Assembly (NCBI RefSeq): GCF_009687845.1
Contig: NZ_BLAD01000086.1
Location: forward strand, 1 to 62,489
Direction of reading: 5' to 3'
Origin: Acrocarpospora corrugata
GTDB lineage: Bacteria; Actinomycetota; Actinomycetes; Streptosporangiales; Streptosporangiaceae
DNA: 62,489 nt
Shown here piece after piece: positions 3,373-5,445 of the stretch. The notes under the pieces were generated by a model. That model worked only from the letters and a program-made list of their open reading frames with translations, was not told the origin of the DNA and ran no database searches. Every line of letters starts with the position of its first letter. Position 1 is the first letter of the stretch. The position numbers and the translations under genes are program-made.

Positions 3373-3840
3373 TCAGTCGCTCTCAGCGTCGGACAGGACG
3401 AGCATGATGTGCTCGTCCTGGCCATGCATGACCGTTCCGCTCGGCCGGAACCCACACCTCTCCAGCAGACGCACCGAACCGGCATTGCCGGAGAAGGGGT
3501 CGGCGAAGAGGGGGCGAGTCTTTTCTCGTTCGAGGAACAGACCTAAGGCTCTGGTGCCGACGCCGCGCCCCCAGAACTCGCGCCCGAACCAGTAGCCGAT
3601 AAAACGTCTACCCTCCTCCCACCAGGCAACGATGTTGCCGGCGGCCACGCCGTCGACCGTGACCGTCTGCACGAAGACCGTGGGATCACCCAAGATCCTC
3701 GTCCGCCAATGGTTCATGAAATAGTCCCGTTCCCGGGGAACGAATCTTGATCGCCGGGTCGCCTCGGGGTCGTGTTCCTGGGCGTAGAACAGCTCCAGGT
3801 CGGCCTCTTCGACATCCCTCAACTGCACCTCGTCACTCAT
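3373..3840 (-). CDS. GNAT-family N-acetyltransferase
   Basis: A 155-residue GNAT fold resembling RimJ/RimL-type acetyltransferases. It begins with VQLRDVEEADLELFYAQ and has the acetyl-CoA binding region IGYWFGREFWGRGVGTRALGL around residues 80-100. The C-terminus has NAGSVRLLERCGFRPSG, the NxxSxxLxEKxGF-like segment of the family. The start is taken at ATG 3840 because the family begins there. An upstream ATG at 3897 would add 19 residues not typical of the family. The substrate is unknown. Confidence 0.8.
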   Translation of the reverse strand: MSDEVQLRDVEEADLELFYAQEHDPEATRRSRFVPRERDYFMNHWRTRILGDPTVFVQTVTVDGVAAGNIVAWWEEGRRFIGYWFGREFWGRGVGTRALGLFLEREKTRPLFADPFSGNAGSVRLLERCGFRPSGTVMHGQDEHIMLVLSDAESD

Positions 3841-3963: not shown

Positions 3964-4039
3964 CCGGGTGTGGGGCAGTTTGGTCAGCCCGCCTGCGTTG
4001 GGAGCAGGAGTATCGCAGGTTCGAATCCTGCCGCCTGGA
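3964..4039 (+). tRNA. tRNA-Pro(TGG), atypical but complete
   Basis: A full cloverleaf can be drawn. The acceptor is CCGGGTG/CGCCTGG (7 bp, two G-U pairs), the D stem GGGC/GCCC, and the anticodon stem CCTGC/GCAGG with loop GTTGGGA (anticodon TGG at 3999-4001, U33 and G37 present). The T stem is GCAGG/CCTGC with loop TTCGAAT, and the discriminator is A at 4039. The variable region has 6 nt. No CCA is encoded. The sequence is unlike the usual actinobacterial tRNA-Pro, so this is probably an accessory tRNA, here the first gene of a tRNA/protein array. Confidence 0.8.
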
Positions 4040-4050
4040 CGCGGTATCCC

Positions 4051-4129
4051 GCAGGAGCTGAGCATTGGTGAGCTCATTCGGTTGTAACCCGGACGCATTG
4101 CTGTGATGGTTCGAATCCATCCTCCTGCA
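4051..4129 (+). tRNA. tRNA-Tyr(GTA)-like
   Basis: The acceptor GCAGGAG/CTCCTGC is a perfect 7-bp stem. The D stem is GAGC/GCTC. The anticodon stem TTCGG/CCGGA carries loop TTGTAAC with anticodon GTA (4084-4086) and U33. The T stem is GATGG/CCATC with loop TTCGAAT, and the discriminator is A. The variable region is about 11 nt, in line with a reduced class II tRNA-Tyr. Position 8 is C instead of the usual T, and no CCA is encoded. It starts 11 nt after tRNA-Pro and is probably co-transcribed with it. Confidence 0.75.
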
Positions 4130-4292
4130 CTCTCCAGAAAGAGCCACTTCGCACCGCAATGCGAGGCCGAGCGGTTCTGTCGGTGGCGGCTGATAGGAAA
4201 TACCTGCAGCCCAGCGAGGAGCCCGAGATCCGGGTATCCCCCCTTCAGATATTGAGGTGTGACATGTCGTCATTTACCGATACGGTCATACC

Positions 4293-5024
4293 GTGACCAA
4301 GCTCAACCAGATCCTCGCCGTAGAGAAGGGCGTCAAATCCGACGTCCAGCGTAAGGTTGCGGACGCGCACAGCCTGATCAACAAGGCTCCGCTGCTGTCC
4401 GGCATCTCCCGGACGTACCAGCCGATCGATGATGAGGGTGAGCAGCTGCCGCCCGAGTCGACGCGGGTGCAGGTGCAGGCCGAGCAGGTGCTCAAGGATG
4501 TGACCGTGGCGCTGACCCGGCTCCTGGACGTCACCGCGACCAAGGACGTCGCGAACTGCTCGGCGAAGGCCGATGTGAAGATCGACGGGGTCGTGCTGGT
4601 GCCCGAGGTGCCGGTGACGTACCTGCTGTTTCTGGAGAAGCAGCTCGTCGACCTGCACAATTTCATTTCGCGGCTGCCCACGCTGGACCCGTCCGAGAGC
4701 TGGACGCGCGACGAGAACACCGATTCCTGGCGCACCGAGCCGGTGAAGACCACGCGAACCAAGAAGGTGCCGCGCAACCACGTCCTGGTGGCCGCGACGG
4801 ACAAACACCCGGCGCAGGTGCAGGTGTACAACGAGGACATCATCGTCGGTTACTGGACCAAGGTCGGTTTCTCCGGTTCGGTGCCGCAGCGTCGGGTGAA
4901 CGAACTGCTGGCCCGGGTCGTCAAACTGCAGGAAGCCGTCAAGTATGCCCGCGAGGAGGCGAACGGCACCGAGATCGTCGACCAGCGGGTCGGTGAGGCG
5001 GTGTTCTCCTACCTTCTCGGGTAG
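4293..5024 (+). CDS. Conserved protein of unknown function in tRNA array
   Basis: A 243-residue soluble protein, about 20% Lys/Arg with many Val and Glu. There is no signal peptide, membrane segment or nucleotide-binding loop. It starts MTKLNQILAVEKGVK, and the middle holds the cluster TTRTKKVPRNHVLVAATDKHPAQ (about 150-172). From memory, close relatives occur widely in streptomycetes and in some actinophages, with no function assigned. The GTG start at 4293 lacks a Shine-Dalgarno, so it may be leaderless. The gene lies between two complete tRNAs and two permuted tRNA-like genes on the same strand, which suggests it acts on or is served by them. No function can be assigned. Confidence 0.8.
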   Translation: MTKLNQILAVEKGVKSDVQRKVADAHSLINKAPLLSGISRTYQPIDDEGEQLPPESTRVQVQAEQVLKDVTVALTRLLDVTATKDVANCSAKADVKIDGVVLVPEVPVTYLLFLEKQLVDLHNFISRLPTLDPSESWTRDENTDSWRTEPVKTTRTKKVPRNHVLVAATDKHPAQVQVYNEDIIVGYWTKVGFSGSVPQRRVNELLARVVKLQEAVKYAREEANGTEIVDQRVGEAVFSYLLG

Positions 5025-5037
5025 TACGTCATAGACC

Positions 5038-5055
5038 CCCGCTCGTGAGAGCGGG
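5038..5055 (+). repeat. GC-rich hairpin after the array protein
   Basis: CCCGCTC, loop GTGA, GAGCGGG form a perfect 7-bp stem starting 14 bp after the stop codon. No U-tract follows. It could slow read-through or separate the messenger part from the downstream tRNA-like part by processing. Confidence 0.5.
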
Positions 5056-5097
5056 TGCGCGAGGAGCGCAAGCTGAAAATGAAGCTCGAAACTGAAC

Positions 5098-5176
5098 ACG
5101 GTGAAAAGTTCGGGTTCGATTCCCGACTCCGGTACCGCATACCGGAGTAGCCCAATGGTAGAGGCCGCCGTTCAAA
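5098..5176 (+). tRNA. Permuted tRNA-like gene A (3' half precedes 5' half)
   Basis: Reading 5' to 3' I see: anticodon 3' strand CGGTG (5099-5103), T stem TCGGG/CCCGA with loop TTCGATT, acceptor 3' strand CTCCGGT (5127-5133), discriminator A and CC. A spacer GCAT follows. Then come acceptor 5' strand ACCGGAG (5141-5147), TA, a D arm with GG in its loop, anticodon 5' strand CGCCG (5166-5170) and loop TTCAAA. The acceptor strands pair 7 of 7, and CGCCG/CGGTG pair with one G-U. Joining 5176 to 5098 would give loop TTCAAAA, anticodon CAA. The short 6-nt variable region is unlike tRNA-Leu, so identity is uncertain. Confidence 0.65.
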
Positions 5177-5206
5177 CTCAGACTCTCGCTCCAGATTCAG
5201 TATTCT

Positions 5207-5364
5207 CCGTCGGACGCCAGAACAATCGAATGCTGACAGAGATAGTCGGGGTGCGGGTTCGATTCCCGCGGGGTGCTCCACGTGCACCCCTAGCTCAATA
5301 GGAAGAGCACGACCTACTTATGACTGACCAGCATTCTTAAACGAGCTGACGTCCCATGTGACGG
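5207..5364 (+). ncRNA. Rod-like precursor enclosing permuted tRNA B
   Basis: The flanks of gene B pair with each other in nested order, outermost first: CCGTC 5207-5211 with GACGG 5360-5364, GGACG 5212-5216 with CGTCC 5350-5354, CAG 5218-5220 with CTG 5346-5348, and GAATGCTG 5228-5235 with CAGCATTC 5329-5336. The last pairing is a perfect 8 bp. All enclose the anticodon stem 5245-5248/5310-5313. The precursor would be a long extension of the anticodon arm, as expected if the two halves are held together for processing and joining. Confidence 0.6.
5245..5319 (+). tRNA. Permuted tRNA-like gene B (3' half precedes 5' half)
   Basis: The order is: anticodon 3' strand GTCG (5245-5248), GGGT, T stem GCGGG/CCCGC with loop TTCGATT, acceptor 3' strand GGGGTGC (5270-5276). 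Then come U73 and an encoded CCA (5278-5280), a 3-nt spacer, acceptor 5' strand GCACCCC (5284-5290), TA, D stem GCTC/GAGC, A26 and anticodon 5' strand CGAC (5310-5313). Acceptor pairing is 7 of 7. U73 with GAGCACGAC and GTCGGGGT resembles actinobacterial tRNA-Gly, but the apparent loop (CTACTTAT) lacks U33 in register, so the mature anticodon cannot be read. Confidence 0.65.
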
Positions 5365-5369
5365 AACTG

Positions 5370-5401
5370 GACCCCCAGGGCCAGGGAAGGTCCTGGGGGT
5401 C
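5370..5401 (+). terminator. Terminator-like hairpin closing the tRNA array
   Basis: GACCCCCAGG (5370-5379) pairs perfectly over 10 bp with CCTGGGGGTC (5392-5401), with a 12-nt loop. It follows the permuted tRNA genes and precedes the MaoC gene. There is no long U-tract, as is common in actinomycete terminators. Confidence 0.7.
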
Positions 5402-5445
5402 GCCGTCCCTAGCCGGAGGCGTACCAACAGAATAAAGTTCGACGT

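Follow-up and report, generated by a model that had tools for sequence, protein, structure and literature searches.

The stretch of DNA analysed here, referred to as the window, is the 62,489 nucleotides (nt) of contig NZ_BLAD01000086.1 in assembly GCF_009687845.1 of Acrocarpospora corrugata, a member of the Streptosporangiaceae. The plus strand of the window carries a full-length gene of 243 codons (4293-5024) whose product belongs to the family DUF7873 (Pfam PF25283, 378 bits, E = 2.5e-113). This gene is followed on its 3' side, in the same orientation, by two RNA units, A (about 5072-5201) and, directly after it, B (5207-5364), each of which consists of a rod that bears a tRNA-like head with its halves in permuted order. 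The preliminary description of this DNA had presented B as a permuted tRNA gene whose rod would hold the two ends together for cutting and joining, with A as its neighbour. The permuted order and a covarying rod have been borne out, as has the existence of A with the same layout, whereas the splicing of B into a tRNA has not; the layout is that of a bacterial Y RNA.

Unit B is supported by its sequence, its predicted fold, covariation, a match to the Rfam family YrlA and R1, a covariance model of B. Its rod comprises three nested helices. The outermost, P1, pairs CCGTC at 5207-5211 with GACGG at 5360-5364, the second, P2, pairs 5214-5220 with 5346-5352 and contains one mismatch in the window, and the third, P3, joins GAATGCTG (5228-5235) to CAGCATTC (5329-5336) with all eight pairs formed. 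Over the outer part of the rod, GGACG (5212-5216) can be matched with CGTCC (5350-5354) and CAG (5218-5220) with CTG (5346-5348), and the four pairings that had been reported from the sequence are all present. The 3' strand of P3 is followed by the conserved rod motif UUAAACG (5337-5343). Between the rod strands lies the head, which opens with the 3' tRNA side of an anticodon-stem-like helix (5244-5248 with 5310-5314, four of five pairs in the window). It continues with the T-arm GCGGG-TTCGATT-CCCGC (5253-5269), the acceptor stem with both strands and their linker (5270-5290) and a D-arm of 4 base pairs (bp) at 5293-5308. The acceptor 3' strand GGGGTGC (5270-5276) precedes the 5' strand GCACCCC (5284-5290), with which it forms seven of seven pairs. 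The 7-nt linker UCCACGU (5277-5283) holds T73 at 5277, an encoded CCA at 5278-5280 and the three nucleotides CGT (5281-5283) before G1, as had been read from the sequence before. After B, the fold of 5025-5410 contains a strong G+C hairpin with a 13-bp stem (5370-5401), which probably marks the end of the transcript, and similar G+C palindromes appear after B in many loci (judged by eye, uncounted). A run of U is absent, and a terminator scan gave no call at this position.

The pairing of the flanks exceeds chance expectation, as had been proposed. The minimum free energy of 5190-5380 is -73.2 kcal/mol, compared with a mean of -57.0 kcal/mol for shuffled sequences (z = -3.62), and one of 200 shuffles was as stable. 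Covariation was examined in an alignment of 42 of the 46 B units, from which L011, L015, L051 and L052 were left out; the unit lists behind the alignments omit virus loci and linkers longer than 40 nt, and one further alignment used 28 of the 46 units. RNAalifold predicts 37 pairs for the 42 aligned units, with compensatory change at 23 of them. In a fuller structure of 42 pairs that includes the anticodon-stem-like helix, 96.2% of cells are paired and two-sided changes occur at 28 pairs and in 250 cells, a level reached by none of 500 shuffles, and sliding the partners by one to three columns leaves only 38-53% of cells paired. The rod taken alone (21 pairs) shows two-sided changes at 13 pairs, as many as or more than which were seen in two of 500 shuffles. 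Its two-sided cells number 123 (shuffles: 40.1, with none of 500 reaching 123), and its paired cells drop from 95.5% to 34-57% when the partner is slid by one to three columns.

The individual helices behave in a similar manner. At P3, the helix on whose covariation the preliminary description had staked its proposal, the consensus (alignment columns 37-45 with 145-153) shows compensatory change at eight of nine pairs, and P2 has two-sided changes at five of seven. P1 is paired in 100% of cells, with three of its five pairs invariant and no two-sided change. In the head, the T-arm is paired in 98.6% of cells, the acceptor stem in 99.3%, with two-sided changes at six of seven pairs, the D-arm in 100%, and the anticodon-stem-like helix in 87.9%, with two-sided changes at all five pairs. 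Related sequences may beat shuffles of this type even when no structure is present; the slid control and the range of pair types, as many as six standard ones at a single pair, nevertheless leave little doubt about the structure of B, which is demonstrated together with its covariation.

Unit A follows the same plan, with a T-arm at 5110-5126, an acceptor 3' strand at 5127-5133, a linker at 5134-5140, an acceptor 5' strand at 5141-5147 and a D-arm at 5150-5165, as well as a conserved rod motif, CUCUCGCUC, at 5183-5191. In the alignment of A units (42 of 46, with L011, L015, L038 and L051 left out), the acceptor and T stems covary. The head of A can be dispensed with: in five loci, namely L003, L007, the two Spongiactinospora loci L052 and L053 and the viral contig L070, the rod is retained and a small plain hairpin replaces the head. 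A further four units (L002, L005, L012 and L037) were flagged as headless by the descriptor used to find heads, yet their printed sequences show heads, and L089 is an uncertain case. An optional head of this sort is difficult to reconcile with a tRNA gene, and it agrees with a protein-binding rod that carries an effector head. In two other A units, the acceptor strands of the head are separated by inserts of 96 nt (L045) and 91 nt (L049).

The head descriptor combines a T-stem of at least 4/5 pairs and an acceptor of at least 6/7, together at least 11, with a linker of 3-109 nt, U8, R9 and a D-stem. With this descriptor, 83 of 85 DUF7873 loci from Actinomycetota, Planctomycetota and phages proved to have heads no more than 790 nt downstream in the orientation of the gene, two in 58 loci and one in 25, compared with 10 matches in a control of 1.22 Mb taken from other positions, or from the opposite strand, of these loci. 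The 85 loci exclude two copies of the window (L001 and L008) and the Ro60 loci L074-L083, and L095, whose weak match contains an in-frame stop, was not in the output; they include L093, from the same genome as L054, and L097, both of which were dropped for the motif counts (n = 83) and kept for the head and linker counts. The two loci without a head are that of a Microcoleus phage and L097, a contig that ends right after the DUF7873 gene, and a head is present in 11 of 12 phage loci and four of four IMG/VR loci. When the 141 heads are typed solely by D-stem length, B-type heads (4 bp) occur in 74 loci, A-type heads (3 bp) in 67 and both in 58; the second head of L021 (+694) is probably not the B unit of that locus.

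The rods are also recognisable beyond the window. A pattern around the A-rod motif, UAUCGCUC, occurs no more than 700 nt downstream of DUF7873 in 60 of 83 loci, with 0.006 occurrences expected per 700 nt, and the B-rod motif UUAAACG does so in 53 of 83, with 0.013 expected. These motifs are common to actinomycetes, the actinophage loci L058-L060, viral contigs (both motifs being found in L072) and some planctomycetes. In B, the paired positions of head and rod change with compensation, whereas short rod-loop sequences are often kept.

The association with DUF7873 was also followed genome by genome by searching R1 in 120 genomes of the bacterial family. The model scores 111.5 bits on unit B of the window (5226-5338), a sequence that is among those used to build it, and 41.4 bits on unit A (5086-5187). 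The scores in the 120 genomes are split, with 36 genomes at 67.9-119.8 bits and none between 54.4 and 67.9 bits. Exactly these 36 genomes have DUF7873 at E = 8.4e-7 or better, located by the listed coordinates on the contig of the strong R1 match, and two weak DUF7873 matches (G767 and G738, E = 4e-4 and 6e-4) come without a strong R1 match. The co-occurrence has a Fisher p of 2e-31, a value that is uncorrected for kinship and uses a score gap chosen after the list had been viewed. The linkage of these RNAs to DUF7873 is near-complete. The DUF7873 gene is incomplete or interrupted in three of the genomes, being reduced to a 38-residue remnant with two stops in G713, split into two pieces in G687 and interrupted by one in-frame stop in G733; the B RNA of these genomes still scores 89-111 bits, with G713 at 89 bits.

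Neither A nor B is called as a tRNA gene, since ARAGORN and Rfam at curated thresholds report three tRNA genes in the window, with neither unit among them. At permissive thresholds the best Rfam match for both units is YrlA (RF02553), with 36.1 bits for B (E = 2.5e-6, 5229-5338) and 23.7 bits for A (E = 0.009, 5091-5185). Both units stay below the gathering threshold of RF02553, 69 bits, which is a weak divider, as the Ro60-linked RNAs of related genomes (30.5-48.8 bits) also fall short of it. As in YrlA, a rod formed by the ends of the RNA carries a head in which T-arm, acceptor and D-arm are permuted, the whole is modular, and it lies beside one protein gene. The partner gene is DUF7873 here and Ro60/Rsr for YrlA, the units occur in tandem in the 58 two-headed DUF7873 loci, and the head of A is optional. 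Bacterial Y RNAs have been described as partners of Ro60.

The distribution of Ro60, detected through its TROVE domain, differs from that of the RNAs described here. TROVE is found in 54 of the 120 family genomes, one of them below the cut-off. The 36 genomes with strong R1 matches and DUF7873 comprise 25 with TROVE and 11 without, A. corrugata among the latter; searches of its genome with the Pfam model and with the Ro60 protein of a congener did not find TROVE, an empty result that would by itself prove little. Conversely, a strong R1 match occurs in none of the 29 genomes that have TROVE and no strong DUF7873. TROVE was found in 16 of 43 DUF7873 genomes or records tested separately (from 71 loci at that stage). 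The 16 virus records among these 43, a number of which are fragments, yielded it only in Rhizobium phage Y65. Furthermore, each of ten Ro60 loci analysed has its own YrlA-like RNA, the source of the score range given above, and the two of these RNAs that were compared by eye differ in rod sequence from the DUF7873-linked ones. Taken with the distribution of R1 and TROVE, the presence of a separate RNA at Ro60 loci indicates that the RNAs linked to DUF7873 should not simply be equated with the Ro60 RNAs of the same genomes. In Rhizobium phage Y65 (NC_070967.1, L065), the TROVE match lies at about 139762-140505, about 6 kb from DUF7873, and both systems may be present in this one phage.

A review presents YrlA as modular, with a stem that tethers the Ro60-like ring protein Rsr and a tRNA-like domain that binds PNPase, and as a substrate of DusA and TruB (PMC8394870). 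Another publication superposes a Y RNA on tRNA via circular permutation (PMC11472068). According to a third, work on the functions of YrlA had by 2020 been confined to Deinococcus radiodurans, and its tRNA-like domain has been suggested to act as a decoy against an anticodon nuclease (PMC7790460).

Several other accounts of A and B can be weighed against these data. A true permuted tRNA gene would have its acceptor linker cut out by RNase P and a 3' nuclease, its ends aligned by the rod and its anticodon halves joined by a ligase, giving a molecule resembling tRNA-Gly. B shares with the circularly permuted tRNA genes of algae and archaea a 3' half that precedes the 5' half and a linker in the acceptor, and T73, the encoded CCA in the window, the two-sided changes in the anticodon-stem-like helix and the near-fixed nucleotide 73 would all suit such a gene. 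In the maturation of permuted tRNAs, as described in PMC3978253, a bulge-helix-bulge motif and the tRNA-splicing machinery are used. Against such a gene, with the usual 5-bp numbering of the anticodon stem, U33 is present in two of 42 B homologues and nucleotides 34-36 vary, in agreement with the earlier remark that the loop lacks a readable anticodon; this negative leans on that numbering, since a 4-bp stem would put T second in the loop of 33 of 42 homologues. NCCA is encoded in just 27 of 74 B-type heads and 14 of 67 A-type ones. Linker length in the acceptor ranges from 4 to 96 nt, with 4 nt in six of 141 heads and at least 20 nt in 13 of 20 virus heads, and some A units have no head at all. 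The proposal that the rod serves the cutting and joining of tRNA halves finds no support in these figures, which favour the alternative already allowed for, a product other than a normal tRNA, and a true permuted tRNA gene appears very unlikely. An even more improbable candidate, to which we give hardly any weight, is a permuted or degenerate transfer-messenger RNA (tmRNA). Permuted, two-piece tmRNAs exist (Rfam RF04321) and likewise bear a permuted tRNA-like domain on a long helix, but the model for them scores 11.4 bits against a gathering threshold of 47, and conservation in B extends to all 4 bp of the D-stem and to an anticodon-stem-like helix.

The RNAs could also be a Ro60-bound YrlA that has drifted away from the Ro60 gene, in line with sub-threshold YrlA scores of the same order as those of the Ro60-linked RNAs of relatives and with the presence of TROVE in 25 of the 36 DUF7873 genomes. 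The strong R1 matches track DUF7873 and not TROVE, though; Ro60 was not found in A. corrugata and was found in one of the 16 virus records, and the Ro60 loci analysed own YrlA-like RNAs, all of which renders a drifted YrlA quite unlikely. Alternatively, the heads could act in cis on the DUF7873 mRNA as cleavage signals for RNase P or RNase Z that set its 3' end, for which their position right after the gene on the same strand and the near-fixed nucleotide 73 would speak. Two long units with conserved rod motifs exceed the needs of a processing signal, and G713 keeps its RNA although only a remnant of the gene was found there; this account too is judged unlikely.

It is, on the whole, probable that A and B are Y-RNA-like ribonucleoprotein RNAs in which DUF7873 replaces Ro60, an account that requires no splicing into a tRNA. 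A and B would be transcribed as stable RNAs from just downstream of the DUF7873 gene. By analogy with the Ro60 system, DUF7873 may bind the rods of A and B in place of Ro60, and the tRNA-like head might attract or decoy an enzyme that binds tRNA, such as PNPase, RNase P, a tRNA modifier or an anticodon nuclease. The resulting particle could then act in RNA or tRNA surveillance. We do not file the RNAs as YrlA, since the search for the Ro60 partner was negative and their scores lie below the Rfam threshold, with the caveat that the Ro60-linked relatives miss this threshold too. They are predicted to work like a bacterial Y RNA and have a fair chance of forming a distinct ribonucleoprotein family.

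A number of observations weigh against a Y-RNA-like particle built on DUF7873. Some R1 match at E = 0.001 or better is present in 85 of the 120 genomes, many of them without DUF7873 and at scores of 54.4 bits or less, and heads of the kind that R1 matches are not exclusive to DUF7873; these weaker matches, not all of which have been sorted, include A units beside DUF7873 and matches beside TROVE genes. The rod of A is conserved but not covarying, with two-sided change at four of 18 pairs, near the shuffled level, and its fold is predicted in only 22 of 42 A units, so that the pairing of the A rod is not proven by covariation. The motif patterns fail in 23 of 83 loci for A and 30 of 83 for B. 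Neither motif is found in 16 loci (L003, L061-L069, L071, L084, L086, L087, L091 and L096), a set that takes in all six proteobacterial-phage loci, both cyanophage loci, one Gordonia phage locus (L061) and five planctomycete loci. With regard to the protein, DUF7873 is not basic (31 K+R against 33 D+E). Its AlphaFold model, composed of long helices and beta strands, is fairly confident, with a mean predicted local distance difference test score (pLDDT) of 86.2 and a predicted template modelling score (pTM) of 0.74; structure comparison of this model gave no clear relative, and the fold thus suggests no biochemical function. Finally, the discriminator is near-fixed, with A73 in 65 of 67 A-type heads and U73 in 54 of 74 B-type ones, as would fit a role for the acceptor end. 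This is not fully explained, and descent from particular tRNAs or contact of the acceptor end with an enzyme are possible reasons.

On a wider scale, we lean towards an undescribed ribonucleoprotein system in which DUF7873 is combined with RNAs that mimic tRNA, in parallel to Ro60 and Y RNA. It would extend through Actinomycetota, Planctomycetota and phages of Actinomycetota, Proteobacteria and Cyanobacteria; in the phages it is often located among tRNA genes, and it may protect or manage tRNAs in infection or stress. The claim of novelty rests on Rfam 15 and on searches of an open-access library, which gave no paper on DUF7873 and, among the titles and abstract openings listed, none that described a DUF7873-linked RNA. 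Annotated tRNA genes lie no more than 2.5 kb from DUF7873 in nine of 12 phage regions, which agrees with a task in the care of tRNAs without proving it. If the system is as proposed, tRNA-mimic scaffolds serve more than one protein, DUF7873 gains its first testable role, and a comparison of the two systems, phages grown on laboratory hosts included, makes the purpose of the tRNA-like head testable.

A search with the DUF7873 protein of the window returned 49 loci in named genomes, mostly of Streptosporangiaceae, together with Kibdelosporangium and one planctomycete. The family was found in seven of 396 genomes of a phylum sample, A. corrugata counted, and in 12 of 246 genomes of a sample from the phylum of that planctomycete, itself counted and one of the 12 being weak. 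Matches also occur in four records of a plasmid collection and in 73 of 50,697 phage records, the phage names including Vibrio, Gordonia, Rhizobium, Klebsiella, Serratia, Arthrobacter, Pseudanabaena, Rhodococcus and Microcoleus; the virus loci analysed were drawn from 12 of these 73 records and four IMG/VR contigs. In a 40-row tree of DUF7873 proteins, which carries a long-branch warning, the actinomycete chromosomal proteins (91/73) group with the actinophage ones (83/88), and both sit apart from most planctomycete and proteobacterial-phage rows. One locus, L048, is labelled Rhodococcus rhodnii and comes from a 12.4 Mb genome; its DUF7873 is nearly identical to that of Kibdelosporangium (L049), and the record is probably mislabelled or contaminated.

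Other RNA genes were seen near DUF7873. In the phage loci, the Microcoleus phage (L067), which is the only one without a head, has a HEARO RNA (3450-3659, 129 bits) downstream of DUF7873, and Gordonia phage Phendrix (L059) shows a tmRNA match of 89 bits at 572-1100, inside a tRNA cluster, for which its annotation table has no such feature. In the window, two low-scoring tRNA genes, Pro-UGG (3964-4040, 54 bits) and Tyr-GUA (4051-4130, 47 bits), lie just upstream of DUF7873. The pair recurs in the Acrocarpospora loci L009-L011 and not in L012, and other loci have another tRNA upstream of DUF7873 (Val in L020, Thr in L033) or none. Among 14 control genomes, Deinobacterium chartae is the sole one with a match, and it matches both TROVE and DUF7873.
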